Below the pieces are notes generated by a model. The model was not told where the DNA came from. It saw nothing but the letters and a program-made list of their open reading frames with translations, and did no database searches. Positions 205 to 60,540 of a DNA stretch of 64,000 bases are shown here, piece by piece. The first letter of the stretch is position 1; every line of letters begins with the position of its first letter. The DNA is taken from assembly GCF_036785885.1 (NCBI RefSeq), contig NC_092312.1:26182001-26246000 (forward strand), written 5' to 3'. The position numbers were made by a program, and so were the translations under genes. This stretch comes from Coffea arabica (lineage: Eukaryota > Streptophyta > Magnoliopsida > Gentianales > Rubiaceae).

Positions 205-3200
205 GTATGAAGTATGACCTTGCAAGGCAAATCAAGAGGATAAAACTTGTTAACCATCGGTGGTTGGAAGACTGGTATGTCCTAGGCTTGATTATTTAGA
301 ACATACACTTTAAAATATGGTTGCCTACTTATCATTTACATGTTATTGCTACTATTCTGCTTGTGCTATGAGCTGCTTCTTAATACATATATTGTTTTCC
401 CTTCCAGTTTAAGGACATGGCAAATTCTGCCGGAAGATGACTACGACAAGAGGTTAGAAACAGATATGAATCCATTTAACATTTTATGAGGTTTGCATTT
501 GGTTGACATGATTTATCCTCAACATTTGGTTGCCACACTTTAATTCTAGCATCTTGTATATGATTTTTAATTAACACGTGCAAGTGAAAAGAAAAGGAAA
601 ATGACAAATTTGCAAATATTTTCTGACTTGTATGTTACTTCTCCATCTTCTCAGTGGATATGAGCTGGACATGATGGAAGCTCAAGCAAAGGATTCTGAG
701 GATGAAGCTCAAGACATGGACACAGAGCAAACGAGAGGGAAGGGTATGGTTTCAACTTCTGGATTACTGTCAGTTAGCAAAATGGAGGCAAAACCTGATC
801 AAGTTTCTCGGGAAGGAACTCCTGTCAGGCTTCTTGAGGTGCCTGGTTCTTTTGTCCCTGGTACAGCAGGGAAAATTTGCACTGAGTTAAATTCAATGGG
901 TAGAACACCACTTCCAGAAAACGTTATAAGTGACCTCACTCCTGCTTCTAAAGTTGATGAGAAATCACCTAGTCCCAATGCATCCAAGTTCACCACTCTA
1001 AGTTATTCCAGAAAAACACCAAGGAAAGCTATTCTTCCTGTAGAATCAGTGCAAACTGAAAGTAAAGCTCAAATTTCTGTTATTCGAGATTTTGATAACA
1101 AAGTTCATGTTAGTGACAGCTTTAGCATGTCGTCTTGCAATATGGATGTGGATGGAACTACTTCAAATGATAAAAGAAGTCCTCTGAAGGAAATTTTATC
1201 ATGTCCAGATGATGGGAGGAGTTATAGTTTGTCTGAGAAGAGAAAGGTGGCCATTTTTGTGGGCAGCTCCAAATTACAAAGGACCGACAATAATTTGGAT
1301 GTCAGCTCAGATGGTGTAGTTGTCAATAGAACTAAAGAACGTCCACCCGAACCTTCAATGAACGAACTGGTGAAGGTTTCTGGTCATTCTCCTGGGAAAA
1401 AATCTGGTTATGCAGACACCACAACTGATTTAAATCCTTTGAAAAGTTCTCCAGCTAAGGTTTGTAGTCCTATCACATCTGAGATAGAGCAAGTATGCAG
1501 CAAGATAGGACCTCAAATTTCTTCTGAAAAGAGAAATATCACTTGCATGGATAGCAATCCAGAAGTTAAAGATCTTCATTCTAATAGGCCTGAAAATGCA
1601 GTTAATGATTCTACAATGGTACAGAATGGGTTGCAAGATGAAGCCCCACCTCCTGAAACCAAAGTACATGAAGTTGAAAGATGCAATCCTATGGTTGGGT
1701 TGGACGTTCCTGGAGGAGAGGCCAGCACTCGGTCAAAACCACTCAAAAGAAAGCTGTTGGCTAAAAAAACTCTGGGCTCTAGACCAAGTTTTGGTAGAGG
1801 GAAGGCTCTCAATCAAAAAGGCTCCATACATATTAAAGAAAAGGGCTCAGCAAAAAATCATTCAATGAGCCCTTTAGGGCAGAATGAAACTGAGGAACCT
1901 GGGAGGTTTATTAGCACAGAAAGAGTTAAAGTGGTCCATCCAACTTTTGATGCAGAGATGGACGAAGATGCCAATATGGCAAATGTTTTAGAATCCAGAA
2001 ATGAAGAGGCATATAAAACTAGATTTGTAGATGATGAAACTGAAGCTACAGAGAATGTGGAGGACAAGGAATTAGATGCCATTATAGATAACGACAAGCC
2101 TGGTGACATTGAGGTACCAAATTCAGTCCCTACGAGGACGGGAGAAAAGGTAGGTGTCCAAATCAAACAAACTGCTGATGACATTCCAGGTGTTGAGGAA
2201 CAGGTGGTGGATTCTGGTGATGACAAGTTAATGAGCGAAGCTGAAAATGCTGCTGGCAAGAAAAATGAACAGAGTGAATCATTACTCGGGGATAATGCTA
2301 AAGGGGAGCGCATAACTAGTGGAAATAAGTTTCCTTCAACCAAAACTAGGAAAAAGAACATTCCTGTAGAAAATTCTGGGAAAGGTGGCCAGAGGAAGGA
2401 GGCCAAAGATGAATTGAGTGGTAAAAAGGCTAAAACAAGGAATGCAAAGGGCTTTGAAGTTAAAGTAGATAAGGATATTATACCAGCACAAGTGGACATG
2501 GCAGATAACTCCATGGGAATGGAAAAGGAGAATACACCTCTTGAGATAGGAAGCATAAATGTGAATAATACTAGTAAAAAGATGGTTGGAATGTCGACCC
2601 GAAAATCCAATATTAAGCCCCAGAAGGATGATGGTGAAGATTCTGGTTCAAAGTCAGTGGCACAGATTATAGTGAAAACAGAACCGATTTGGTTTATATT
2701 AAGTGGGCATAAGCTACAAAGAAAGGATTTCCGACAGGTGATTCGGCATTTGAAAGGAAGAGTTTGCAGAGATTCTCACCAGTGGTCATATCAGGCAACG
2801 CACTTTATTGCTCCAGATCCACTGCGCAGAACTGAAAAGTTTTTTGCTGCTGCAGCATCTGGAAGGTATGGCCTTGTTTTGGTACGTTAGTTTCTTGCTA
2901 GAGTGAGTTATTATATAAGTTTAGCCTTGGATGGAAGAGAAGGTTCACTGTTTATTTGATTGCCTGCTTTCTCGGACTTCCCAGTATGAATATTTCTCCA
3001 AAACATCCCTTGGATTTGCAGGTGGATTCTGAAGACTGATTATTTGAGTGCTAGTAATGAGGCTGGAAAGTTTTTGGCTGAGGAGCCGTATGAATGGCAT
3101 AAGAAGGGGCTGAGTGAAGATGGTGCAATCAACTTGGAAGCTCCAAGGAATTGGCGCCTCTTGAGGGAGAGAACTGGGCATGGAGCATTTCATGGAATGC

Positions 3201-3979
3201 GCATAATTATTTACGGGGAATGCATTGCACCTCCTCTGGTATACTCTTCTCTTTCTGTTATTTTATTGTGTTAGTAGCATCTTATACCACAGAAGTTGAT
3301 TTTCGTGTGCGATTATCCCCTAATTCCAAAGTTCTTTGTTGCCAATTATTTTTCAAGATTTTCCTTTTCTACTGACTTCCTGGAACTGTGTCAAAATTTC
3401 TCTCATTTTGCCCTAAATTAGGATACATTGAAGCGCGTTGTGAAGGCTGGAGATGGGACCATTTTGGCGACTTCACCTCCTTATACTCGTTTCCTTCAAT
3501 CAGGAGTCGACTTTGCTATTGTCAGTTCTGGGATGCCTCGGGTTGACATTTGGGTTCAGGAGTTCTTAAGAAACGAGATACCCTGTGTTTTAGCTGATTA
3601 CTTGGTAGACTATGTATGCAAGCCCGGGTACTCACTTGATAGACATGTACAATACAACACGCTTGCTTGGGCAGAGAAGTCACTAAAGAACCTAGTAACT
3701 CGCATGGAAGAAGTCGTCGAGAATCCTACTTCAGAGGAAAATGATGATGACATAACATGTCAAGTGTGTGGTTCTCGTGACAGGGGAGAGGTAATGCTCA
3801 TTTGTGGCGATGAAAATGGTTCCTCTGGTTGTGGTATTGGTACCCACATTGACTGCTGTGATCCTCCGCTAGAAGAGATTCCACAAGAAGATTGGTTTTG
3901 TCCGAACTGTAGGAACAAAAACGGGCAAAATGCTCAAAAGAATTCTAGGAAACCCATCTCTAGGTTAAAGCGAAAGTGA
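205..3979 (+). CDS. BRCT-domain and PHD-finger protein (At4g02110-like), 3' part; 5' end lies outside the window
   Basis: Five exons read with GT-AG borders: 205-274, 408-452, 655-2865, 3022-3238 and 3422-3979, giving 1032 residues of open frame; earlier exons lie left of the window. The first residues (KYDLARQIKRIKLVNHRWLE, then DC) end an N-terminal BRCT domain. The very long third exon is Ser/Lys/Glu-rich and probably disordered. From about 2690 a C-terminal BRCT region starts (WFILSGHKLQRKDF; RWILKTDYL) and a further BRCT-like part follows in the last exon (DIWVQEFLRNEIPC). The protein ends in a C4HC3 PHD finger at about 3757-3920 (CQVC, ICGDE, HIDCC, CPNC). The plant family with this order is annotated as a BRCT-domain DNA-repair or transcription-coactivator-like protein acting in the nucleus. 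BRCT domains usually bind phosphopeptides and PHD fingers histone tails; the exact role of this protein is inference. It converges with UPM1. Confidence 0.9.
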
Positions 3980-8100: not shown

Positions 8101-9088
8101 CATACAAAATCCCAAGTCCCAGTATAAACAAAAGCAATCCACAAAGCAAATAAAGCATTACATAAACCAAAAAGGCAAAAACAAAGTTCAATTCTCGTTA
8201 AAGACCAATACAAATAGTGAAACTCCTAAATCACGAAATACACCTCAGTGGTATCAACTCTAAGCGACCTCAATTTAAAAAAAAAAAATCATATTCCAAT
8301 TCCAAATGAGAATGCAATATTCAACACCTAATTCACTCATCTTTATCAACATCCCACGTCAAAGTCGAGTATAATGCCCCAAGAAAACCCTGTAATTAAT
8401 CTCAGAAATTAACTGTGCACTTTCTCAGTTCGTAAAATAATTATCTTTACCCAAATTCCCAAATCAAAATTGAATCTTTAACATCCAAAGAGTTCACTCG
8501 AACGGGAAATTTTTTTTTTTTGGGAGGAGTTAAACTAACTTCAAGGCAAGGGATTCTTACCTGAGTTCTGCTATGGTACCCTGCAGTCTTGCCAACATAG
8601 AGAAGTCTAGCATCAGGGCTAACCAAATCCAAGACGTCATTAGAAACCAACCTATCATACAACAAAAGATCAGCACTTTGGATAACCCTCAAGGCCTTAA
8701 TCGTCAACAATTCAGGGTCCCCTGGTCCTGTTCCCACCAAAAACACGTTCCCGGGTCCTCTTTTTCCAATCCCAACTTCATTTTCCCTTTTCTCCTTCAA
8801 AACCTGAAGCAATTTCTTCAGCTCTGGGAGCTGGAGAGCAATGTCATAGTCCCTGATGGAGCTGGAATCAGATGGGAGTGGACAAAAAGAGGATTGCTGC
8901 TGCAATTTGGTGCTGGTAATGTTCTTGTACAACCAATTATCCCTTTGGTACCTCTCAATTGAATGCTTTTCAGTAAATGGTGAAGTGCTGCATTGTATGT
9001 AAGAAACTGGATTAACGGAAGAAATTTTGGGTTTTCGCAAATGGGTTCTTGAAGAGGAAAGAGATGGAAGCCTACTCACTAGGGCCAT
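5128..9088 (-). CDS. UPM1: Uroporphyrinogen-III C-methyltransferase (SUMT), chloroplastic
   Basis: Five exons on the minus strand: 9088-8561, 7706-7629, 7469-7400, 6658-6381 and 5283-5128. They join in frame to 369 residues, the length I recall for Arabidopsis UPM1. The enzyme uses S-adenosylmethionine to methylate uroporphyrinogen III at C2 and C7, the first committed step to siroheme, the cofactor of nitrite and sulfite reductases, in plastids. Family motifs visible: VGTGPGDPELLTIKA (N-terminal SAM loop), DLLLYDRLVS, VRLKGGDPLVFGRGGEE across the exon 2-3 junction, GITSASGIAAELGIPLTHRG and VERGTTPQQRTV. About 110 N-terminal residues are Ser-rich and fit a transit peptide. The ATG at 9088 (MALVSRLPSL) is the first in frame; upstream the frame reaches 9139 only through a GTG. 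The last intron, about 1.1 kb, is the longest. Confidence 0.95.
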
Positions 9089-11020
9089 AACTGTTATTGA
9101 ACAAAAAAAAAAAAAGCAAAAATGGGTATCAAAACCCACTCTTGAAATGCTCTCTCTCTGGGTTTTCCAGTTTCCACTTTACGCATGTTTATATGGGCGT
9201 TAGGGGTTGAATAGGAGTCAACATTTTGAGCTTTTTGGATGCTGAGAAGGCAGGTTTTCAGCAGCTTTTTGAGGTTTTGAAAAGGGACAGGTTCTTTTTG
9301 AGTTTTGGTGACCTGGGGTGCATTCCCAAAATTTTCAGTTTTTTTTTTTTTTTTTTAATGTAGGAGGGGAATTGATGGAATCAGCATCAATTCGGAATTT
9401 AGTTGGATGATTATACCCATTCAACAAAATTATAGAACCTAAAGTGAGGGGGGAATGGACCCAATTGGACAGTGAGGAGGCCAGGGTGAGATGCATGTAA
9501 TTTTTGAGGGGCTCTTATGTTATTTTGTGGAGTACTTAAAAAAATGGGAGCGGCTGGAAAAACCGGTCAAACACAAAAGAGAATTTGTTCTCCACCATCT
9601 GGTTGAAGCTGCCCGAATGTGCTTATCTTTTTCCCTTTTTTAGCTTTTCTTGGTGGATTGAAATTGTGTGCCGTAGGGAGACCTGACTCTTGGAAGCTGC
9701 GGAGAGAAGTTTTTGTAAGGATGAGAGGCGGCTATGTGCTTTGGCTTCATCTGCTTGTTTGGAATTCAGATTTCATATTAAAAAAAAGAAAAAAAATAGA
9801 CAAGTTGCAAACTTTTCAATTTACTACTTTAGATTAACATTGATAGATTTGACAAAAAAAAAAAGGAATGAAAGGAACCAGGAAGTGTTACAACTAAGCA
9901 TATGGATGTGACTTTAGTTGCATGCAAATTAATTAGAATTAAATTTCTCTTCTTCTTCTTTTTTTTTTTTTTTTACCAAATTTGATACCATTAAAATGGT
10001 CAAGAAAACTTTTCCCGGTTCTTGTACAATTTTTTCTTGCAAAACTTAAAATGAAATCTGGCCCTAAGTAGTACAGAACGATGGAAGTTGAATATTAAGG
10101 ATGGGAGTTCCTGATTGTGTTTTGACGCGCACATATTTTGCCAAGAAATGGCTCCCTTTTGCATTCAAATGAAAACGTCCAAAACAAAGCACAATTGAGT
10201 TGCACAATTGACTTAACTCATTACGTAGCATTACAGCTTTCCATGGTTCTTGAGTGTGCACCAGCCCAACATTAAGCCTAGCTAATTAATGAAAAGAATT
10301 CATCTATAAAAAGTGATTAAAAACTCGCGACATTGTCTAATCATTAATATGAATATAAAATCGAGAAGGTGGACCATCAATTAGTTTGCATCTGTCTCGC
10401 ATGCGTAGGATTTTCCTAACTGAGGATGCTTACCGAAGTTCTTGATGGTACAAAATCAAGGGTTCTTGATTGCATACAAATGCACATCCACTGCCTCATT
10501 CTTTGCAGTTGGATGTATTTGTGCTCTTTTTACTGAGAAAGATTTTGACTTTCGAGTGCGGAATTGCGTGCTCTTTGCGGTAGATGTGCTGTGTGCTCTT
10601 TTCCCTCGGAAAGATTTGAGTGCGGAATTTCGCAATTGCACATTACAGTTATGTTCCTTACATAACTGTACTTCTTTCTTCTTGCACTAGAGCCTATTCA
10701 ACTTCTAGTTCCTATTCCTATCCATACACCACTAGCATCACAATTTGAAGCAAGAAAACACCTAACAATTTGGCATTTTGAATGTGTATTAATCAAAAAG
10801 TTGAATGAGGTTCTGTATGAGAAACATGCTGAATTCCGCGCCCCTGGATCAGCTCCAATTTGAGCCATCCAATTCAATTTTTTTTAACCAATGATTTTTT
10901 TCTTTTCTATTATCAGAGTTGATTACCCAAATCTGAACCACAAGTCGGATCCTGTAACTGTAGCTCGAAGACATCAAAGAAAAAACATGTTAAAAAAGAA
11001 GAAGAAGAAGAAGAAGAAGC
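9089..11020. other. Intergenic: UPM1 promoter side and unannotated DNA
   Basis: Holds the UPM1 5' flank, with several poly-A/T tracts, and no gene I can support. At about 10505-10640 there is a weak tandem duplication (two stretches each with a GTGCTCTTTT-like core and GAGTGCGGAATT). A short GAA/AAG-type triplet run lies at about 10996-11020. Confidence 0.5.
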
Positions 11021-11153: not shown

Positions 11154-11369
11154 CTATAATCGAGGGAATTGCGAATTGAGAGGGAAATAAGAGGCAACAA
11201 TTGGAGCTCTGGAAGGCTTTGATCTTTCTTCATTATACTCAGTATTGGGTGTTGAAGAGGAAGAGGAGGCCAACTTTCCCTTGCTTTTGCCTGCATCATC
11301 TGATTCTGGTGAGACCTTGGATTTGGAATTTGAAGGCAAGAAGGCATCTGCAAATGAATGAGAAGCCAT
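11154..11369 (-). CDS. Short serine-rich peptide, unrecognised family, copy A
   Basis: A 71-residue open frame from ATG to TAG, single exon. I do not recognise the family. It starts MASHSFADAFLPSNSKSK, has a Ser/Lys-rich middle with SPESDDAGKSKGK and a run of serines, and ends RAPIVASYFPLNSQFPRL. Two other frames to the right, at about 11.7-11.9 and 15.9-16.1 kb on the same strand, share the N-terminal FLPSxSKS, the DDAxxSK motif and the C-terminal APIxxSxxPL...RL. Conservation at both ends and drift in the middle suggest a real small protein rather than a chance frame. There is no clear hydrophobic signal peptide. Upstream DNA around 11400-11420 resembles the 5' flank of copy C (shared CCTTGAACTTGTA). 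Role unknown; a short signalling or stress peptide precursor is only a guess. Confidence 0.6.
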   Translation of the reverse strand: MASHSFADAFLPSNSKSKVSPESDDAGKSKGKLASSSSSTPNTEYNEERSKPSRAPIVASYFPLNSQFPRL

Positions 11370-11693
11370 TCAAGTGTTTGGACCAAAGCTAGTTGCTTTC
11401 TTGCCTGAAGCCTTGAACTTGTATGATGAATAGAATGCTTGCTTATTGGAATTATAGAACGTGGACCATTGATAATCTTGATGAGGAAGGATTAGAGACG
11501 TTATGTTGGAATCATTTTATCAATTTTAAGAGACACTACTGGCTCTTTTGCAGCTCCTCAGCTTCTGGGGAAATGTGCCATTTCACGAAGAATTTGTTCA
11601 TCCCCCCCCATGAAAAAGCAAATCTAGCTAGCTGCAGCCGTGCAGGCGCAGCTTTGTAGCTCCATTACCGTCTACCACACATCTTGAAATAGA

Positions 11694-11909
11694 CAATCGA
11701 GAGGGCGGAAAATTGAGAGGGAAGTTGGAGACAACAATTGGAGCCCCGGAAGATTGTAATCTCTCTTTACTATTTTCGTCAGATTTTGATGATGAGGAGG
11801 AGAAGTAAGAGGGTACTTTTGCCTTGCTGTTTCGAGCATCATCTGATGAGGCCTTGGATTTGGATGATGAAGGCAGGAAGCATTTACAAATAGACGAGAA
11901 GAAAGCCGT
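11694..11909 (-). pseudogene. Short serine-rich peptide, copy B, probably broken
   Basis: The frame is homologous to copies A and C over 72 codons: AFFSSICKCFLPSSSKSK, then SSDDARNSKAK, a serine-rich stretch, and SSGAPIVVSNFPLNFPPSRL. The position of the start codon in copy C is ACG here (at 11909), and no ATG lies upstream in the same open frame. The stop that follows the final RL in A and C is replaced by sense codons, so the frame runs on to 11628. Loss of both start and stop points to a pseudogene. Non-AUG initiation with a C-terminal extension is possible but less likely. The body of the frame has no internal stop, so the loss may be recent. Confidence 0.6.
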
Positions 11910-12210
11910 TCCTATTTCATGTAACGTAGCAGCACTAGAGCATATTACTGGGCTGCTGCTTTTTGCTTTCGCCGGTGCAGTACTTTTGAAAGTTGGCTTA
12001 GCAATAAACAAGATGAGGGAATCCTTAACTGGGGAGCAATGGATTTGATGGTTTGGCGAGGGAACGTAAATAAGAGATTTCGGATTCAAACCCTTCTATT
12101 ATATAATTAAAAAAAAATTAAAAAGAAAAAGATAAGGGACTCCTTGAAAATATTGTACAGTATCACAAATGTGGGTTGTCGAATCTTTGAAGTTGTAAAT
12201 GTAGAGCTTT

Positions 12211-12335
12211 GTTTATATAGAGAAATTAAATTATAGTAGATAAGTGAGAAAGGAAAGCCAGTAGGGCACCATATTAATTCGTTCTTGGTGACCTACATGG
12301 GAAACTTTTTACCTATTATTAAACACGTTTTGACC
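12211..12335 (-). promoter_or_regulatory. Putative promoter of peptide copy B: TATA box and W-box
   Basis: On the minus strand a TATA-like CTATATAAAC lies at 12220-12211, about 300 bp before the copy B frame. About 110 bp further upstream is GGTCAA (TTGACC on the plus strand, 12330-12335), the core W-box bound by WRKY factors. The same two elements, with similar flanking words, occur before copy C. The match suggests a duplicated promoter; WRKY control is inferred from the motif only. Confidence 0.45.
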
Positions 12336-12368
12336 AATACTAGTATAGTCACATTCATATGTACAAGT

Positions 12369-12600
12369 TACTGTCCCGTTTGGATAGTGTTTTTCTACCA
12401 AAAAGATTTTTTTATTGTTTTTTGTGAATATACCTTTTACACATTCTTTAATTATACTCTAAAGATTTAATTATACTTTAATTACACAACCTTTTGTGAA
12501 TATACAAAAAGATTTTTTTTATTGTTTTTTGTGAATATATTATACTCTAAAAGAATGCTATAGTAATTTTTTTCTATAAACTCCTCAAAAGATTTCTGTG
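12369..12600. repeat. MITE-like AT-rich repeat with internal duplication
   Basis: Begins with CCCGTTTGGATAGTG, the terminal word shared by several MITE-like repeats of this window. A stretch of about 30 bp (AAAAAGATTTTTTTATTG, then TTTTTTGTGAATAT) occurs twice, near 12402 and 12507. The matching right terminus is not clear. Confidence 0.4.
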
Positions 12601-13403
12601 CATAGTTATTTTTCAAAAAACAGAATGGTTCAATTACATAAGAATATAACTTGAACTTATTTCTATTAATACCACATGTTTTTTAGGTTGAAAATAATGC
12701 TCAAACCCTCGAATTCAACAAACCTAAAGTTCTTGTCAACAAAAGGAACAGAAGCAAAAAAATAAAGAGCTTATATTCATCTGGGATAATAAATAGTTTA
12801 TAATAGGATTAACGTTTTTCGAAGTTGAGTAGAAAATTTTTTAATAACGAACATCACAAAAATATATATGCAGCCACCCTTCTACCTTTTATGCTATATT
12901 CATGTTACTATAACAATATTTATTTACTCAACCACAAATAGATGTATAACCAAAAAAAAAAAAAATCACATGGAATGGTTTCAGGTTCGTTTGGGAGTGG
13001 ATGATTTGGAGAGAAAATAAAAGGAAAGAAGAGTTAAAAGTGAATATTTTCTTCGTTTGTTAGTTTTTATTAGGAAAGAAAAGAAGAGTAATGGAAGGAT
13101 TTAAGAGGATAAATAGTAAGTAAAAGTTTTCCTTCCAAATTGGAGAGAAATGAAGAGAAAGTTGAAGGAAGCTTATGAAAGTTTTTTAAAATACCTATTT
13201 TATTCTTAAAAGTGTATTGAACAAATATTTAATAACTTTTATATCCAAAATCATTCCACTACTTCTCAAAACTCCCAAACAACATAACAATCCCTTATCT
13301 TCTCTCATAACTTAAGTTTTCCCTTCTTCTCTTTTCTATCCTAAACTCCTAAACTTAGCCGAAGGCTCCATGGACGATGGATGTAGAGGAGCAACAGTGG
13401 TAT

Positions 13404-13728
13404 GGTTTGTTTGGATATCCCAGTTAAGGTTGTGTTTGGATTGTATTTTTCATGATTTTTCATGGAAAAATTACTGTAGCGATTTGATGTATGTGAGGAA
13501 AAAAGGCAATAGGGAAATGTGATCACGGAAAACGACGTAATTTTTTGACGGAAAACAGCAATCCAAACAAGGCCATCGAATAATATTTCGCTTGCATTAT
13601 AGATACATTTTTCAACCCACTTTTTTATATTCTCAATCACCTTTTTGTCTCACATACATCACATCACAAAAAGTGTTACAGTAATTATTCCAAATAATAT
13701 TTCAAATAATACACTATCCAAACAAACC
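13404..13728. mobile_element. Nested pair of MITEs
   Basis: The outer element has perfect 14-bp terminal inverted repeats, GGTTTGTTTGGATA at 13404-13417 and its complement at 13715-13728. Within it, a second MITE with ends TGTTTGGATTG and CAATCCAAACA spans about 13433-13569. Relatives of the outer right half (ATAATATTTCGCTT, CACATACATCACATCACA, TTATTCCAAATAATATTTC) recur at about 17.2, 61.4 and 61.9 kb. No coding capacity; such elements are moved by a transposase supplied in trans. Confidence 0.75.
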
Positions 13729-14516
13729 GGGCAATTAAAAATGAGCTCCTTGGTTTCGCAAATGTATGCGATTTGTGGGGTGTTGTCTTTTTTTTTTTTT
13801 TTTTTTTTTGTCAATCGTCAACTCTACTTCTACTCCTACTCTATTCTAACCTAACTATGGGAGAGACCCAACTGGATCTATGGGGATCGATGGGGACAGA
13901 ACCACCACCGATTGATGCACCCGTCTGGATTTTTTGTGGGGTGTGTTGTCACCTCTGATGACTTTGGATCTCCCGTCTCAGTCAAAGCACTATCTTAGTA
14001 GAACCTTCGTTATCGTATGCCACACGCTCGTTGAATTAAGGCCTTAAGGCCCTTAACTGGACTGTAGTTTTTTGCAGAAAAATTTTGGAGAAAAATTAAG
14101 GGAGCCATCTGTGTCAAAAGGTCCGAGATTCATTTCGAAAAACAGGAATGCCAGAGTAGTAGTCCGCATGTCCATAACTACCTTGATTCTTCTGATTGGA
14201 TTGATTTTTTAGTGTGGTATATTTCTGGTAGCAGACGGGGCAGGGACGATAATCAAAAGGATCGTTTTTGAACAGTTAATGATCAGAATTTAACGCAAAA
14301 AAATTATATGGTTCAGATTATTTCTTGTATCTCTTTTTAACAACGTACGTGGGGCTTACAAAAATTTGTTCTAAAATTACACGTTATGCAAAAAAAGCTA
14401 TGTCGTGTGCAAACAAACTTATACGGTGTGCAAAATGCACAAAATCGCTCTGCAACCATTTCTGCCCGTGGTCCATATTTCTGTAACTTACTCATCATTG
14501 TTTAGGGAGCTAATAT

Positions 14517-14712
14517 TAGATCACAGGTCTCACAAATTCCGGTTCAAAGCAGTTGAGGGTAGAACGGATATTTTGTGTATTTTATATTACCATAGTCTTA
14601 TTTGTTTACATCTTATTCAATACTGGATCACGGGTCTCACGAGTTCCACTTCAAAGCAGATGGGGGTAGAATGGTTATTTCCTGTGTTTTATACCATAAT
14701 CTTATTTGGATT
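14517..14712. repeat. Diverged tandem duplication, about 110-bp period
   Basis: Two diverged copies, 14517-14602 and 14627-14712, share GATCAC.GGTCTCAC, TTCAAAGCAG, GGGGTAGAA.GG and a TATTACCATA-like tail. A 154-residue open frame crosses this segment, but the repeat structure and lack of motifs argue against a gene. The surrounding 14.0-15.2 kb shows nothing else I can name. Confidence 0.5.
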
Positions 14713-15248
14713 CATTTATATTATACTTCAGCTAATTTATACCTCAGGAGCAAACTGGTTTAAATTGGAAATTGTGAGCCCCGATCCCCTAATATCGCCC
14801 TCCCCTTTCAAAGTTTTAAAAGGCACTCCACCTGAAATCTTTTTCCTAATCTATGGTTCAAGAAGCTGAAGTCCACACAAAATGAGATCAAAATGTTGGT
14901 GGAGCTGGCTGTGCTCGCTTTTTAAGGGGTTGTGCTATGTGACAATTGGTGTATTTTCATCCCATTAGAGAGGTGCGAAGATGAGATAAGAACGCTGAAG
15001 ATTGAAAAATAAGAATTTAGGGGCTGCAATCATTAACAGATCAAGAGGTTCTGCTAAAAGAACAAATGAATGTGAATGGCTTCTCACTTTTTAGTATCTA
15101 CTGTAAAAAAAATAAGAAAGTGCATGAAATGAATTAGTGTGTACTTTGGTAAAAGTACCGGAGTAAAATGGGATTATGAAGAAAAAAAGTGCCAAAGTCA
15201 GCAATTTATCATAATATCAAGTGCAATTTAGTTTGAACATGTAACTCC

Positions 15249-15389
15249 CCGTTTGGAAAGCAACTTTCTTTCACAAAATTTTTACATTTTCTACGAATAC
15301 ATTTTTCAATCACCTTTTTACCTCACATATATGAACTTTCTATAGTAATTTTTTCTACTAAAACTCCAAAAAATTGCAATCCAAATAGG
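15249..15389. mobile_element. MITE, TTTGGATTGC-type termini
   Basis: Starts CCCGTTTGGAAAGCAACTTTC and ends ATTGCAATCCAAATAGG, giving imperfect inverted ends. The interior contains the family words TTTTTCAATCACCTTTTT and CCTCACATATAT. About 140 bp, non-coding. Confidence 0.6.
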
Positions 15390-15921
15390 AATAAAATTGT
15401 TTGCATAATAAACTGAAAAGAAAGAAAAGAAAACCATCTAGTTCGTAAGGTAGGCAGATTATAAGTTTTGGTTTAGAAGGTAAAAGACCTCATCCCAAGC
15501 TTTTAGGGGTTGGCTTCCACTGGACTAAAGCCAGGTTCAAGTAGTGTCAGCTGCTGAAAAATGCAAGGGTGGAAAAGCTCATATCCCAACTATTCTTTTA
15601 TTAGCTTTGAAAACGAGGGAAAAAACTGACCCTAGTTCTTCTTAGTACAAGCCAAAGACAGACAGACAGAGACCATTTAAACAAATATTCTTCTTCACAG
15701 AGTACTTGGCTCTTCGCAGCTCCTCTTCTCCTCTACCTGGGGACAAATTTTGCAGAAAACGCACTAGCAGTACTTAACCTTGCGATTTGAGGGACTTTTA
15801 CTTTTTCCTTGGGAAAAACAAGCTTATATCTTCAAGAACTAAAGCTGCAGCGCGCCACGCGCATGCAGCAGAATATTCTTCAAAAAGTCTAGTACGGGAA
15901 TCAGAACAAACATTTATTAGA

Positions 15922-16125
15922 TTACAATCGAGACGGCTGCGAATAGAGAGGGTAGTAAGAGGCAATAATTGGAGCTCCGGAAGAATTTGATGTCTCTTTA
16001 CTAGTGCTACTTTTATCCGATTTTGAAGCTGAGGAGGAAAGGGGATTTGCCTTGCTTTTGCCAGCGTCATCTGATTTGGATGATGAAGGCAAGAAGCATC
16101 TGCAGATGGAGGACAGGAAAGCCAT
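15922..16125 (-). CDS. Short serine-rich peptide, unrecognised family, copy C
   Basis: A 67-residue single-exon frame, ATG to TAA. It starts MAFLSSICRCFLPSSSKS, has DDAGKSKAN, a Ser/Lys-rich middle (SSSASKSDKSSTSKETSNSS) and ends SGAPIIASYYPLYSQPSRL. It is the best preserved of the three copies and matches copies A and B at both ends. The first 12 residues are mildly hydrophobic with two cysteines, but too short for a standard signal peptide. DNA downstream (about 15700-15760, GGCTCTTCGCAGCTCCTC) and upstream (16281-16405, and about 16925-17000) is homologous to the flanks of copy B, so a unit of at least 1 kb was duplicated. Function unknown; a lineage-specific peptide precursor is inference. 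Confidence 0.65.
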   Translation of the reverse strand: MAFLSSICRCFLPSSSKSDDAGKSKANPLSSSASKSDKSSTSKETSNSSGAPIIASYYPLYSQPSRL

Positions 16126-16280: not shown

Positions 16281-16405
16281 TTTATATAGAGAAATGAAAT
16301 AATGTGATAAATTGCTAATCTTGCTGAGCAAGGAATGAAGGAGAATTTTTTGCTTTCTTGGTGGTGGGCTACATTGGAATCATTTGGTCACTCTCAGCTT
16401 TGACC
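16281..16405 (-). promoter_or_regulatory. Putative promoter of peptide copy C: TATA box and W-box
   Basis: A minus-strand TATA-like TCTATATAAA at 16290-16281 stands about 155 bp before the copy C start codon. A W-box core (TTGACC on the plus strand, 16400-16405) lies about 115 bp further upstream. Order and spacing match the segment before copy B, which supports a shared ancestral promoter. Confidence 0.5.
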
Positions 16406-33853: not shown

Positions 33854-36800
33854 AATAGAAGGCTTTAAGCATTGCCATCCTGTGATAAGTATAGATGGTA
33901 CATTCTTGTATGGGAAATATAAAGGAGCCATACTTATTGCAGTTTCAGTAGATGCAAACAATCAACTATTTCCACTTGCCTTTTCAATTATGGACAGTGA
34001 GAACAATGATAGTTGGGGTTGGTTTATGGCATGCATAAGAGAATTTGTCACTCAACGAAGGGGCCTCTGTGTGATATCTGACCATCATCCAGGTATTATT
34101 ACCACAATGAGTCAGATAGGATCAAAGTGGATTGAACCATTTGCCTACCATTGTTTTTGCATCCGCCATCTAGCAAGTAATTTTAATACTAAATTTCATG
34201 ACAAAATATTGAAACACCTTCTAGTTGCAGCTGCAAATGAAAATCAGGTTTTCAAATTTCAGAGAAAGATGGAAACAATTGGCAAGATAAATCCGAAAGC
34301 TCGAAAATGGCTAGATGATTTGCCAGTTGAGAAGTGGGCTTTAGCACATGATGGTGGCAAAAGATATGGTATAATGACAACAAATTTATCAGAGGTATTT
34401 ACCAGTGTGTTGAAGGATAACAGTTTTGGTGCAACTTACTTCTATTGTGTCAACAGCTATTTTGCCATTAGAAGGCAATTAGCAGTTCAAAGAAGTGTTT
34501 GCGGCCAATCTTTCACTCCTTTTGTAGATGGAAAAAGCTTGTTCTTATGGGATCAAGGCAGGAGGTCATGAAGTAGTCCTACTTAACCGACCCATTGGTT
34601 CATTCAGCATTAAAACTGGTCGATCACCTATAAATAAAAGAAAAGGTGGTCGTGTCCAAGTTGTCAAGTTAAATGAAAAACATATTATTGTTCCTGTCAA
34701 AAGTGGCAAATATTTGCATTCCCCTGTTCCCATGTAATTGCTGCATGCCAATATTGTACCCTGGATTACAAAACCTTGATTCAGAATTGATACTCACTAT
34801 CTACCTATGGGAGAACTTGGGCTCAACTTTTTAATCCAATACTTGACAAATCTTATTGGCCTCCTGGAGAGGACGTGGTGCTTATTCCTCGTGACGCGAT
34901 GAAAAGAAATACCAAGGGTCGCCCAAAATCAACACGGTTGCACAATGAAATGGATGCTAGAGAAGGTCAAACCAAAGGAACATGTAGATTGTGCGAACAA
35001 AAGGGACACAATAAACGCAGATGCTCTATAAATAAAGCAACGTATGCAACCTAAATTCTTAGTAGTTTCTCTTTTTTTTCAAGAGTCATAAGCTGATATT
35101 ATTGAGGTAGTATTGGCTAAGTGATAAGAATTTTGTTTTTGTAGGAACTTGCATCCATGATGTTCTATCACAGTCAAATTCCTGTGTTGCACTTATTGGG
35201 AGTAATTGGCAACAAATTCTATATTTTAAATGCATTATTTAAGCTTCTTGTTGACTCTTTCCAGGAAACCAATAGTTTTTATGCTATGCTTGAAGTGTTT
35301 TTTTCATGTGGTTAATCTCACATGAACTGATTTTGGAAGAAAACAATCATGTTGGTAATGGTTGATGCACATTGTCTAAGAGAATATTGATTACTAAAAT
35401 CCAAAACCTGTGCTATTTGATATCTCATAATTTTTCAGGATTGTCCAAACAAGTTTTGATTTTGAAATTTGAGTTTGCTAATCCTAGAATATATAGTTAT
35501 ATACAAGTGGCTGCCTTCTGCTTAATTTTCACGTAAATTAGACCCTGAATTTTTTTAAATGTGTCTATGACAGCCTTGCAAGTTAGGCAAACAATCAATT
35601 TTTTTTCTTGGATTTTCTTATTCAAGAAAAGTGGTGAGAAGTGATTACTTTTGATTGCTGAAGCTTGAAGTTATCATATCTCTTGACTCTTAGCCTGCAA
35701 TTTAAGCATAATACATCCAAACACGTTTTTTGGCTTTTAGTTTTCTATTATTTTACTTCTAACTTGTGATATCTTTTTGTTTTTCTCATTCTCCATATGT
35801 GACTTGCAGTGATCAAATAGAGCTTACCATTCTGGAAATAGGATCAATGATATGCCTGAACTTAGCATTATTAAAGTGCCTGAACATATGATTAGTTGAT
35901 TGTCTAATGACATTCTTATATTCATTCCATCTTTGCGAGCACTTAAGGAAGCTTCAAGAGTGCTGGCTTAAATATTTCAAATTTGCTTGCAATTGGCAAT
36001 GATAATAAGACACATTTTTCAATTGCAAATTTATTGTAATTATACCGTGACTAAGTTTTTTTTTAGTTCATAATACCTTGTTTTTTAGTTCTTTGCATAA
36101 GATATGGATGTTGAGACTTTTACTGCATTTTTTAAGTTTAATAAAAAGTTCATTTTTGTTAGTTTTCCCTTTACAACATGACTTTTTTTCAAGTAGTAGG
36201 ATGTCATTGTCTTTTATGCTAGTTGATTACTTATATAATAATCTAGCAGTTTTTTGTTTGCAATTGAAAATTTGAAAATTTCAGTTTTATTACATCTTGT
36301 AAAAGTTCCTTTCAAGGAGTAAGAAGGATAATATAAACAAATATGATAATCTTGAAGTTTTTGTAACTTTTTCTTGTTATTGCTTACAATTATTGTTGCA
36401 ATTTTTTAATTTTTCAATTTTTTTTGAAAAAATATATGCAATAGGTTTGATACATTTCAAGAAAAATGTAAAAACCAATCATAGTAAGGTCAATAATGGT
36501 AGAATTTATTTTAAATAATTATAAGAAAATTATCAAAGTTATGCAATCTTATTGTGCCTCTATGATTAAAAAATATTAAAATTTTAGTTCATGTTGGAAA
36601 CTATAAACTAGATCAAACTTTCCTTTCTTGTTATTCTGCGTGGCAATCAGGATAATTAGGTGGCAATAATAACATCATTATGGGAATAAAATTTTAGAAT
36701 GAATCATATTGGGAATATTTTTTTTTATAAAGAGTGTTATTTTAGAAAAAAAAAAAAAACTCCTCAAAAATCCTTAAAAACCCACATAGAACACACGCAC

Positions 36801-54839: not shown

Positions 54840-56996
54840 TCCACTGCTTCAGAACCATTCACCATTCCACTTTCTTCTCTTCAGTATTCACCACTCCAAC
54901 AACAAATCTGCAAAGCTGGAACTTGGCTCAGCTTTTACAGTTTTCGCCACTCCACTCTCTCGTCTGCAGGTAAGTTGTACCAACTGCCAAGCATTCCCTT
55001 TAACCTGCAGTAAAAGATCCTATCCAGAAACAACACCGAAGGAAAAGACAAAAAAAAAAAATGTATACCATAGCATAGCATGACAGTCGGGGGTAAGAGG
55101 CAGGCCGCTGCTAACAAACAAACAGCAAACCACGCCAGAGCACACTCTCACTGGGTAGTGACTCTAACGTCCTTTCCTTCCTACCCTTTTCGCCTTTCTT
55201 GTAAATAAAGTCATCAAAATGTTTGCAAGAAAACAGGAGAAAATCTTTATATAATCCCAGATAAAAAAGCCTCACCTTTTCTTACTCTCTGTTTTCATAT
55301 TTCTTACTCTCTGTTCTCAATAGAGACACCAAGTCTTATAGCATGCTTTGGTTACAGAAAAAATGCTGAAATGATCAGACAAAAACCGCAGTTTTGATCA
55401 CTCCCCCTTTCATAAATATCTGTCCTTTTATCGCAGAACAGAGGAAGCGTTGCCATTTTTGATGGTTCATCTTCGTACTCTTTCCTTGACGGTAAATTCT
55501 TTTCTCTGCGTATGCATTAGCACAGAGCCACAATGTGATAGTAGTGCAGCGCCACGTACTGTATGATTTTCTATTTATGTTTCTTTGTTGTTCATTCTTA
55601 AGACCTAGGCTTGCATTTTTAGAAGAAAAATCTGATTCTTGTATAAGATTTCTCTTGTTCGTCCCATCTAAAGTCCTCTGCATGTTGAAGATTTTTGCGC
55701 TTTTTAAGATGTTTACATCATGGATTTTCTGGATTCTGCCAGAAAACTGTCAAAAACTTCCTAAAATAGTCAGAGCCCAGGAATTTTATAGGCGGACATG
55801 GTTTTTTCTACTGCATTTATGGCTTCTATTCTAGATACCATGTTCTGATGTTCATAACTTGTTTTGCTTGCCTGTATATTTAGGATACAAATGAACGTGG
55901 AACTCAGGATAGATACAGAAAATTGTTTAGGAAAATGGTAGTATAAAGCTAAAAATAGCATGACAAAGAATTAGGCTTTACCATGAGACACAAAAGAGTG
56001 AAGCAGATACGAAGAAGGCAAGAAAGAGTTATCAGAATCAATGGTGGAGAAACTATAAAAAAAAAAAAAGAAAAATTAGATCGTGGAAATAGATATATTT
56101 CAAGGGTCTAACCGATGTAGGAGAAGTTTATGATTTTGAATAAGTTAACGTTAAAAAGATTTGAGATAGAGAGACCGTGATAAGGGGAGAAATTCCAGGA
56201 TTTGTGAACAGATTTGTTTTAAGAAGGCTAATAGAGTTCAAATTCAAAATGAATGACATAATAAACAGAAACGAAGCTAATCAAGGAAGTTTTGTACTGG
56301 TAAGATCTGGCAGAGATTATGAGGATGTTTACTACTGCTAATTAAGGGGTCATCTTAAATTTTCGAGAATTTGTGTACATGGACAGAGAAAGAGAGATCT
56401 CTGTACTGTGATTTTGTCTGGCAACTGGCAAGTAACTGAAACATGAGTGGGAGACATTAGTCTCCCATCAAGTTGGGGAGAGATTCAGGGGTTAATTGCT
56501 CAGACAAAGGTTAAATAAGAAGCCATGCATTCTAATACAAAATCGTGTATGCCTCATAAATGTTTAAGTTCAGAGAAATTTTTCTTGCAAAAACAATTAA
56601 TGTGGAAAAAAGGGATTCATATTTTTAAAAAAAGCATATAAAAAAGTTCAACAAATTGGAAAATCCAACTTTATGTTTTTTGGTTTCCATGCTCATCTTT
56701 TCCTTTTTAATTCTTTTATTGGTGGAGGATTGGCAACTGGCCTATGGATGCAGGTGAGTATCAAGTCCGTGTACTTCATATATCACACCTTACAAACGAT
56801 GTTAATCCTTGCCTGGTACATATGCACATATAAGATGTTAGGTTCTAGAAAAATTTTCCAGAAAAAGAGGAATGTTACTAAATACCTCATCGCATCAATG
56901 TAGCACGTGGTACAATATGATATAGCTTATACATAACAGCAGTAGCTGCTGCTGATTCTTTCTAAGAACTCCTCATTTTCTGTCTTTGCAGTGACA
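54840..56996 (+). promoter_or_regulatory. Probable 5' UTR, leader intron and promoter side of the MCTP gene
   Basis: A strong acceptor (TTTGCAG) ends at 56991, five bases before the MCTP start codon, so an intron interrupts the 5' UTR. The best donor candidate is CTGCAG/GTAAGT at 54970; another is GATGCAG/GTGAGT near 56754. If the first is used, the leader intron is about 2 kb. No alternative coding exon is apparent between them. Inferred from splice signals only. Confidence 0.5.
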
Positions 56997-59381
56997 ATGC
57001 CACCCAAAAACAATCAGAAAGGGAGCCAAAACCAGACACGCAATGCCAATCAAAATTCAATCCCGAGCGAGGATTTTGATATCAGAGAGACCTCACCAGC
57101 TCTTGGCGGAGGAAGAGGATCTGGAAATGACAAGGTGGGAACTGCTTTTGATCTTGTGGAGCAAATGCATTACCTTTTCGTGAGGGTGGTTAAGGCCAAA
57201 GAATTGCCTACGAAAGATGGTAATGGTACTCCTGATTCCTTTGTTGAAGTAAAACTTGGAAATCTTAGAAGTGAGACTAAGCATTTGAAAAATGTGTCTA
57301 ATCCTGAATGGAACCAAGTTTTTGCATTCCTGAGTGATAGGATTCAAGCCCCAGCAGTGGAGGTTTTAGTGAGGGACAAAAACAGGAATGGAGATGATTT
57401 AATTGGAATGGTTGTTTTAGATGTGATGGACGTTCCAAAAAGAGTTCCACCTGATAGTCCTTTGGCACCACAATGGTACACATTAGAGAATAGGAAGGGG
57501 GATAAGGTGAGAGGAGAGATGATGCTAGCTGTTTGGATCGGGACACAAGCTGATGAGGCATTCCCAGAAGCTTGGCATTTGGATGCTACAACTGCAGTTA
57601 GTGGCGACGGAATAGCAAATATTAGATCCAAAGTTTATTTATCTCCCAGGCTTTGGTATCTTAGAGTTAATGTTATTGAGGCTCAAGAGTTGCAGCTTTC
57701 TGATAAGAATAGGCAGCAACCAGATATCTTTGTGAAGGTTGCACTTGGAAATATGTTTCTGAGAACTAAGATTTCACAAAGCAAAAGTACATGTCCATTA
57801 TGGAATGAGGACTTGATGTTTGTTGCAGCAGAGCCTTTCGAGGAGCAGTTGGCTTTGAGCGTGGAGGAGAAAGTAGCACCAAACAAGGATGTTGTTCTCG
57901 GGAACTGTTTGATTCCTTTACGTGGGGTGGAGAGAAGGATTGATTTGAGAACACCAATTAATAGGTGGTATGGCCTTGAGAAGCATGTTGTTTCTGAAAA
58001 TGGACACAGGAATTTGGTAAAACTAAATAGCAAGGTTCATCTGAGGATTTCTTTGGATGGTGGATACCATGTTCTTGATGAACTAACTAATTACAGTAGC
58101 GATCTAAGGGCATCAGCTAAGCAGCTTTGGAAGCCTGCAATTGGATTACTTGAATTGGGGATCTTGAGTGCCCAAGGATTGTCATCAACAAAGACTAAGG
58201 ATGGCCATGGAACCACTGATGCTTACTGTGTAGCTAAATATGGGCAGAAATGGATCAGGACCAGGACCATTTTGAACAGTTTGAATCCCAAGTGGAATGA
58301 GCAATATACATGGGAGGTTTTTGATCCTTGCACAGTTATCACTATTGGTGTATTTGATAATTGTCATTTGCAAGGAGCAGATAGGGGAGGTGGAGTAAAG
58401 GATTCAAGAATTGGGAAGGTAAGAATTCGTTTGTCAACTCTTGAAACTAATCGTGTGTACACACATTCATACCCCCTTATAGTGTTGTTACCTTCTGGGG
58501 TGAAAAAGATGGGCGAAATTCAATTAGCAGTGAGGTTCTCTTGTTCATCTTTATTGAACACGCTCCAAATGTACAGCCAGCCTCTGTTGCCAATTTTGCA
58601 TTACCTTCATCCACTTACTCGTTATCAGACTGACAATTTAAGGCATCAAGCTACTCAAATTGTCTCATTGAGGATGAGCCGTGCAGAGCCACCATTAAGA
58701 AGGGAGGTGGTGGAATACATGCTTGATGTGGGTTCAAATATGTGGAGTGTGAGAAGATGTAAAGCGAATCACTACAGGATTGCATCTGCTATGTCTGGAA
58801 TTGTAGCATTTCTGCAATGGTTCAATGGGATATGCACTTGGAAGAATCCTTTTGCCACAATTCTGGTTCACATCCTGCTGTTAATCTTTGTAGCTTTTCC
58901 CCAGATTATTCTGAGCTGTAGTTTTCTCTTCCTTTTTCTGGTTGGGATTTGCAATTACCGAGGGAGGCCAAGGTATCCTCCTCATATGGATATCAAATTG
59001 TCTCAAGCTGATAGAGCTCATCCTGATGAACTTGATGAAGAGTTTGATACTTTTCCAACATCCCGGCATTCAGATGTCCTCAGAATGAGATATGATCGCA
59101 TAAGAAGCATTGGTTCGAGGGTGCAGACTGTTGTTGGTGACTTGGCAACTCAAGGGGAAAGGTTTTATAGTCTGCTTAGTTGGCGAGACCCAAGAGCTAC
59201 TGGCCTGTTTCTTATCTTCTGTTTGGTTGCTTCTCTTGTAGTTTACATCATTCCATCTAAAGCTCTGGTTGTTGCTGTGGGATTTTATTTGATGAGGCAT
59301 CCAGCATTCCGTGAAGAGCTTCCTGCATTGCCCCTAAATTTCTTCAGGAGGTTGCCCACACGAACAGACAGCTTGCTTTGA
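56997..59381 (+). CDS. Multiple C2 domain and transmembrane region protein (MCTP/FTIP family)
   Basis: One uninterrupted coding exon of 794 residues. Three C2 domains: from about residue 55 (YLFVRVVKAKELPTKDGNG), about 219 (WYLRVNVIEAQELQLSDKN) and about 381 (LLELGILSAQGLSSTKTKDG). Domains 1 and 3 keep the acidic loop residues (TKDGNGTPDSFV, TKDGHGTTDAY), so they may bind calcium; domain 2 is less complete. The C-terminal plant PRT_C region has two membrane segments, near residues 618-650 (FATILVHILLLIFVAFPQII) and 734-755 (ATGLFLIFCLVASLVVYIIP). Plant MCTPs tether the endoplasmic reticulum to the plasma membrane, often at plasmodesmata; the FTIP1 and QUIRKY members affect movement of FT and signalling. 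Which member this is cannot be said without alignment. The ATG at 56997 (MPPKNNQK) is the first after the leader acceptor; the frame extends upstream only via a GTG. Confidence 0.93.
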   Translation: MPPKNNQKGSQNQTRNANQNSIPSEDFDIRETSPALGGGRGSGNDKVGTAFDLVEQMHYLFVRVVKAKELPTKDGNGTPDSFVEVKLGNLRSETKHLKNVSNPEWNQVFAFLSDRIQAPAVEVLVRDKNRNGDDLIGMVVLDVMDVPKRVPPDSPLAPQWYTLENRKGDKVRGEMMLAVWIGTQADEAFPEAWHLDATTAVSGDGIANIRSKVYLSPRLWYLRVNVIEAQELQLSDKNRQQPDIFVKVALGNMFLRTKISQSKSTCPLWNEDLMFVAAEPFEEQLALSVEEKVAPNKDVVLGNCLIPLRGVERRIDLRTPINRWYGLEKHVVSENGHRNLVKLNSKVHLRISLDGGYHVLDELTNYSSDLRASAKQLWKPAIGLLELGILSAQGLSSTKTKDGHGTTDAYCVAKYGQKWIRTRTILNSLNPKWNEQYTWEVFDPCTVITIGVFDNCHLQGADRGGGVKDSRIGKVRIRLSTLETNRVYTHSYPLIVLLPSGVKKMGEIQLAVRFSCSSLLNTLQMYSQPLLPILHYLHPLTRYQTDNLRHQATQIVSLRMSRAEPPLRREVVEYMLDVGSNMWSVRRCKANHYRIASAMSGIVAFLQWFNGICTWKNPFATILVHILLLIFVAFPQIILSCSFLFLFLVGICNYRGRPRYPPHMDIKLSQADRAHPDELDEEFDTFPTSRHSDVLRMRYDRIRSIGSRVQTVVGDLATQGERFYSLLSWRDPRATGLFLIFCLVASLVVYIIPSKALVVAVGFYLMRHPAFREELPALPLNFFRRLPTRTDSLL

Positions 59382-60081: not shown

Positions 60082-60540
<459 letters not shown>

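Follow-up and report, generated by a model that had tools for sequence, protein, structure and literature searches.

A tandem family of small proteins in Coffea arabica with a conserved C-terminal tail

Three frames of the window and their relatives

A stretch of Coffea arabica NC_092312.1, 64,000 nucleotides in full and called the window here, carries three related frames on its minus strand, named A, B and C. They belong to a family of very small plant proteins that is real, old and nameless in the libraries searched, and which is best explained as protein-coding, its members being small (64–71 amino acids), single-exon plant proteins. A preliminary description of the window had reported three same-strand frames, two with a proper start and stop, as an unrecognised tandem family in which the two ends are conserved and the middle, rich in Ser and Lys, varies. 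The present analysis bears this out, as all three frames were found and both A and C have an ATG and a stop. The motifs it proposed also recur, with FLPSxSKS reading FLPSSSKS in A and B and FLPSNSKS in C, DDAxxSK present as SDDAGKSK in A and C and as SDDARNSK in B, and APIxxSxxPL appearing as APIIASYYPL, APIVVSNFPL and APIVASYFPL in A, B and C, respectively. It overlooked the exact SRL, PRL or SLL ends of the frames and the broken state of B. Its scope was also too narrow, as the family reaches beyond the window on chromosome C3 to C4, C17 and C18.

Copy A (15922–16125, minus strand) is the only fully typical member in the window. It consists of an intact 67-residue frame running from MAFLSSICRCFLPSSSKS to GAPIIASYYPLYSQPSRL, stop included in the coordinates, and is 98–99% identical to its homeologue on C4. 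The conserved 17-residue tail of A (APIIASYYPLYSQPSRL) occupies 15925–15975 on the same strand and ends in SRL. Copy B (11694–11909, minus strand) is broken, with ACG in place of the ATG of A; it lacks a stop where the family has one and stays open as far as 11628. The C4 homeologue of B has the same ACG together with a 16-base deletion near the N-terminus, and on these grounds B is interpreted as a pseudogene. Beyond the deletion, 11 of 195 bases are mismatched in this broken homeologue pair. Copy C (11154–11369, minus strand) is an intact 71-residue frame ending in PRL, in which the N-terminal Cys motif is replaced. Alignment with the DNA of A reveals that, near its start, C is four bases short on balance and further on carries one extra base; the stretch that gives LSSICRC in A is consequently read out of frame in C and gives HSFADA, which lacks Cys. 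The N-terminus previously described as shared by all three frames is thus not fully present in C, owing to these compensating indels. Of these three copies, A would be functional, the status of C would be doubtful and B would be a pseudogene, making B and C unsuitable as typical family members.

Genome-wide searches covered 1.198 Gb in 131 contigs, a genome that resembles an allotetraploid plant's. With A as the query, 13 places were returned at E ≤10, 12 of which belong to the family and one of which (on C21, E 5.3) does not; the window matches, B and C, had E values of 7.6e-11 and 1.9e-5 against the whole 1.2 Gb genome. The same trio is present on the partner chromosome C4. A second, diverged tandem cluster (D1–D4) comprises three copies on C17 and four on C18, bringing the family to 11 intact and two broken frames. 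D1 (2510–2710 of locus L029, C18) has no equivalent in the C17 stretch used for comparison (L031), which amounts to a copy-number difference between the subgenomes.

The failure of the preliminary description to match the frames to the CEP, IDA, PIP, PSY, SCOOP or DVL families agrees with the absence of any curated Pfam-A match for the five members tested at E values up to 10. Searches of PDB sequences and of PHROGs each returned a sole match, to a green fluorescent protein chain (E 0.6) and at E 0.32, respectively, both taken as chance. Pattern matches in prokaryote (12) and viral (6) contigs, none of them confirmed, are uninformative for plants. Open-licence PubMed Central held nothing on the family by peptide strings or topic, which does not in itself show absence from print; a silkworm peptidomics paper matched by a peptide string is unrelated. 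Proteins of this general kind, small and bearing a conserved C-terminal motif, are already known from plants.

Kinship, selection and promoters

Single-sequence searches link the two clusters weakly. A matched the C17/C18 copies at E values of 0.033 to 5.7, and D1 or D2 as a genome query returned no C3 or C4 copy at E values up to 10. A profile of A, B and C aligned with a profile of D1–D4 over 65 columns, from first Met to last Leu, with 97.1% probability, and in all 12 cross-cluster pairs the alignment score was matched by 0–2 of 2000 composition-matched shuffles. Removing the last 18 residues left a much weaker signal, lost altogether in several pairs, with 2 to 752 of 2000 shuffles reaching the score, hence the kinship between clusters rests mostly on the tail. 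The degenerate tail pattern A-P-I-x-x-S-[YF]-[FY]-P occurs at 18 places genome-wide, including all 11 intact frames, compared to one place for the reversed control. By eye, the other seven places have no family N-terminus or features. Four of these (L046, L047, L049 and L050) are copies of a C11/C12 repeat reading LAPI[ED]FSYFPNLE, without the family N-terminus or stop position. A looser first pattern was discarded, its matches being as numerous as those of its control. Synonymous divergence (dS) between the clusters is ~1.2–2.9 or saturated, indicating that the split is old.

The protein is under selection. The ratio of nonsynonymous to synonymous divergence (dN/dS), estimated by the Nei–Gojobori method (NG86), is 0.28–0.54 among the C17/C18 paralogues, 0.37–0.42 for A–B and 0.62–0.68 for A–C. 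Fisher tests on rounded counts, applied to pairs that are not independent, gave p values of 0.001 for D2–D4, 0.006 for D3–D4, 0.010 for A–B, 0.021 for D1–D4 and 0.061 for D1–D2. Neutral dN/dS, which the preliminary description had named as evidence that would speak against the family, is therefore not the overall picture, although A–C taken by itself is not significant (p 0.15). Between homeologues, five pairs of open reading frames (ORFs) show 11 mismatches in 1,029 aligned bases and no gap, against 88 mismatches in 2,781 bases and 29 gaps in the 300-base sequences on either side (ORF vs. flank p 1.3e-4), although loci vary and the 3′ flank of C and the flanks of D4 are about as quiet as the ORFs. 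Small plant proteins that lack a domain are easily lost in annotation, and this family is under selection in multiple copies.

A TATA box lies 117–173 bases upstream of the ATG in nine of the 11 intact copies. That of A is at 16282–16288 (minus strand, TATATAAAC context), 163 bases upstream of its ATG, and that of B is at 12213–12219 (minus strand), 310 bases upstream of its ACG and with the same core as A (TCTCTATATAAACA). On C4, copy C has a TATA box at −203, and on C3 it has no TATA[AT]A[AT] between −1 and −700 and a weak CTATAATT at −87. All 10 TATA-bearing promoters examined (two of A, one of B and seven of D1–D4) carry a CCAAGAA element, placed 65–152 bases upstream of the TATA box. In A, it lies at 16355–16361 (minus strand), 73 bases upstream of the TATA box. 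CCAAGAA is the sole 7-mer common to all six representatives within 250 bases and any such 7-mer arose in 0 of 500 dinucleotide shuffles, a control that is too lenient given shared ancestry, above all of A with B and of D3 with D4. No CCAAGAA belonging to copy C itself occurs within 900 bases. In D3 and D4, the element sits within the palindrome-like CCAAGAANTCTTGG. A link to hypoxia was considered and dropped, as the 1,000 upstream bases of the 12 copies scanned contain no element of the hypoxia-responsive promoter element (HRPE) type.

These data bear on two alternative views of the family. Low-complexity composition and the weak single-sequence matches between clusters, with nothing returned from C3 or C4 by D1 or D2, might suggest that spurious Ser-rich frames resemble each other by chance. 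The profile match, the shuffle tests, the ratio of 18 places to one for the tail pattern, codon selection and the aligned promoters all disfavour this view, leaving it hardly credible. It may also be that the window cluster is mostly decaying, with B dead, C dying, and function retained by A and no other copy, or solely by the C17/C18 cluster. Such decay would fit the lost start and stop of B and the deletion in its homeologue, the lost Cys motif of C, the lack of a near TATA box in the C3 copy and the insignificant A–C ratio. However, the frame of C is intact in both subgenomes with one change in 216 bases, albeit beside a 3′ flank that is also little changed, and A retains its frame, TATA box and CCAAGAA element. 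General decay of the window cluster is considered unlikely.

The C-terminal tail and a possible peroxisomal role

In all 11 intact frames, the stop codon immediately follows SRL (seven: two of A, D1, two of D3 and two of D4), PRL (two, both C) or SLL (two, both D2), and the final residue is Leu in each. These three tripeptides are all among the 48 validated plant peroxisomal targeting signals type 1 (PTS1) in Table A1 of PMC3427985. By an approximate composition, ~1.5% of random C-termini would fall on this list. The family resembles plant PTS1 proteins in this sharing of C-terminal tripeptides with the list in PMC3427985, but differs in its size of ~65 residues, its lack of a Pfam domain and its conserved tail of 17 residues, compared to the 10–15 that PMC3427985 describes for the PTS1 domain.

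Several observations weigh against reading the tail as a PTS1. The match was spotted after the fact and is suggestive. With ~1.5% of random C-termini on the list, chance is a somewhat improbable source of the initial match, and with 11 of the 18 single-base replacements from SRL remaining on it, subsequent conservation contributes little. Owing to shared ancestry, the 11 frames also represent few independent observations. The canonical pattern [SA][KR][LMI], as quoted in PMC9328179, is fitted by the seven SRL frames, with the four PRL and SLL frames falling outside; that source counts PRL as non-canonical, and SLL lies outside the pattern it quotes. According to PMC3427985, few proteins with non-canonical tripeptides are peroxisomal. 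Finally, conservation in the tail is strongest in API and SY[FY]P, its most constant residues (A, P, I, S, Y, P and S) preceding the final tripeptide. This exceeds the needs of a PTS1 and calls for a second contact besides the import receptor PEX5.

The N-terminus (MAFLSSICRCFL, MALLSSFFACFS) contains ~9 hydrophobic residues with no basic residue before them and, in A, an Arg inside the stretch, as judged by hydropathy only. The maximal 8-residue Kyte–Doolittle mean is 1.86–2.44 in the D copies and 1.96 in A. Signal peptides are usually not conserved as sequence, and the family N-terminus is (SSxxxCF). No typical signal peptide is apparent from hydropathy. An amphipathic N-terminal helix is not claimed, as the hydrophobic moment was equalled by 5–38% of same-residue shuffles. 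The AlphaFold2 single-sequence model of A contains no confident structure (mean predicted local distance difference test score 61.9, predicted template modelling score 0.15), as may be expected from a disordered protein or from the lack of an alignment. Neither this model nor Pfam-A, with five members tested, gave an enzyme-like fold or domain.

The explanation considered best, though short of probable, is that the family product is small, disordered and intracellular, with a 17-residue tail that serves for docking and closes in a predicted PTS1. The protein would remain inside the cell, where its short hydrophobic and usually Cys-bearing N-terminus may contact a membrane or another protein and the Ser/Lys-rich middle may act as a disordered linker. 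The last three residues of the tail would be read by PEX5, and the protein, or a partner bound to APIPxSYFP, would thereby be brought to peroxisomes. A more speculative extension, which is doubtful as a whole, proposes an unnamed family of adaptors that tether or carry partners to peroxisomes by means of a hydrophobic, Cys-containing N-terminal anchor and a PEX5-readable tail, with APIPxSYFP as the contact to a partner or receptor and the shared CCAAGAA–TATA promoter switching the copies together. If the tail is a PTS1, a whole small-protein family would be added to the plant peroxisome. Otherwise, the invariant APIPxSYFP core would be a defined docking motif usable as bait.

The nearest rival to a peroxisomal tail retains the intracellular adaptor but has the tail dock some other partner, with SRL, PRL and SLL incidental. 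This is quite conceivable, though again short of probable, as the best-conserved tail residues lie upstream of a tripeptide that itself varies and no enzyme-like fold or domain was found; the validated status of all three tripeptides in Table A1 of PMC3427985 and the constant final Leu speak against it. The 'small adaptor with a C-terminal motif' of the preliminary description is conceivable and comes near to the explanation considered best here. Its other proposal, a peptide precursor, is poorly supported. In that case, the family would be secreted or released, by the secretory path or in a PROPEP-like manner, with the C-terminal 17–18 residues as the mature signalling peptide. The short length, conserved C-terminus, variable Ser/Lys-rich middle and hydrophobic N-terminus are compatible with such a precursor. 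However, the hydrophobic stretch is short, without a positive n-region and interrupted by Arg in A, the N-terminus is conserved as sequence, and no processing site was identified, making this improbable.

The PROPEP precursors of the Arabidopsis Pep peptides are likewise short, with no classical signal peptide, a variable charged middle and a conserved C-terminus, but the family tail does not appear to resemble the Pep core. CEP, IDA, PIP, PSY and SCOOP precursors share the size class and a conserved C-terminal region. They possess signal peptides, in contrast to the short family N-terminus with its conserved Cys and no basic n-region. DVL/ROTUNDIFOLIA proteins are similar as small intracellular plant proteins with a conserved C-terminal half. 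A DVL model exists in Pfam, and the family differs in that its five tested members had no Pfam-A match.

Other genes in the window

Several further frames in the window match known domains. At 632–3979 (plus strand), frames with BRCT (weak) and PHD-finger matches are probably exons of one BRCA1-like gene, their joining being inferred. A frame at 8447–9139 (minus strand) matches tetrapyrrole methylase and probably belongs, as an exon, to a gene for uroporphyrinogen-III methyltransferase. The frame at 33882–34571 (plus strand) matches MULE/Mutator transposase domains. An MCTP-like C2-domain protein with a plant phosphoribosyltransferase C-terminal (PRT_C) match is encoded at 56991–59381 (plus strand), and a core histone, H3-like by sequence, lies in a single frame at 60082–60513 (minus strand).

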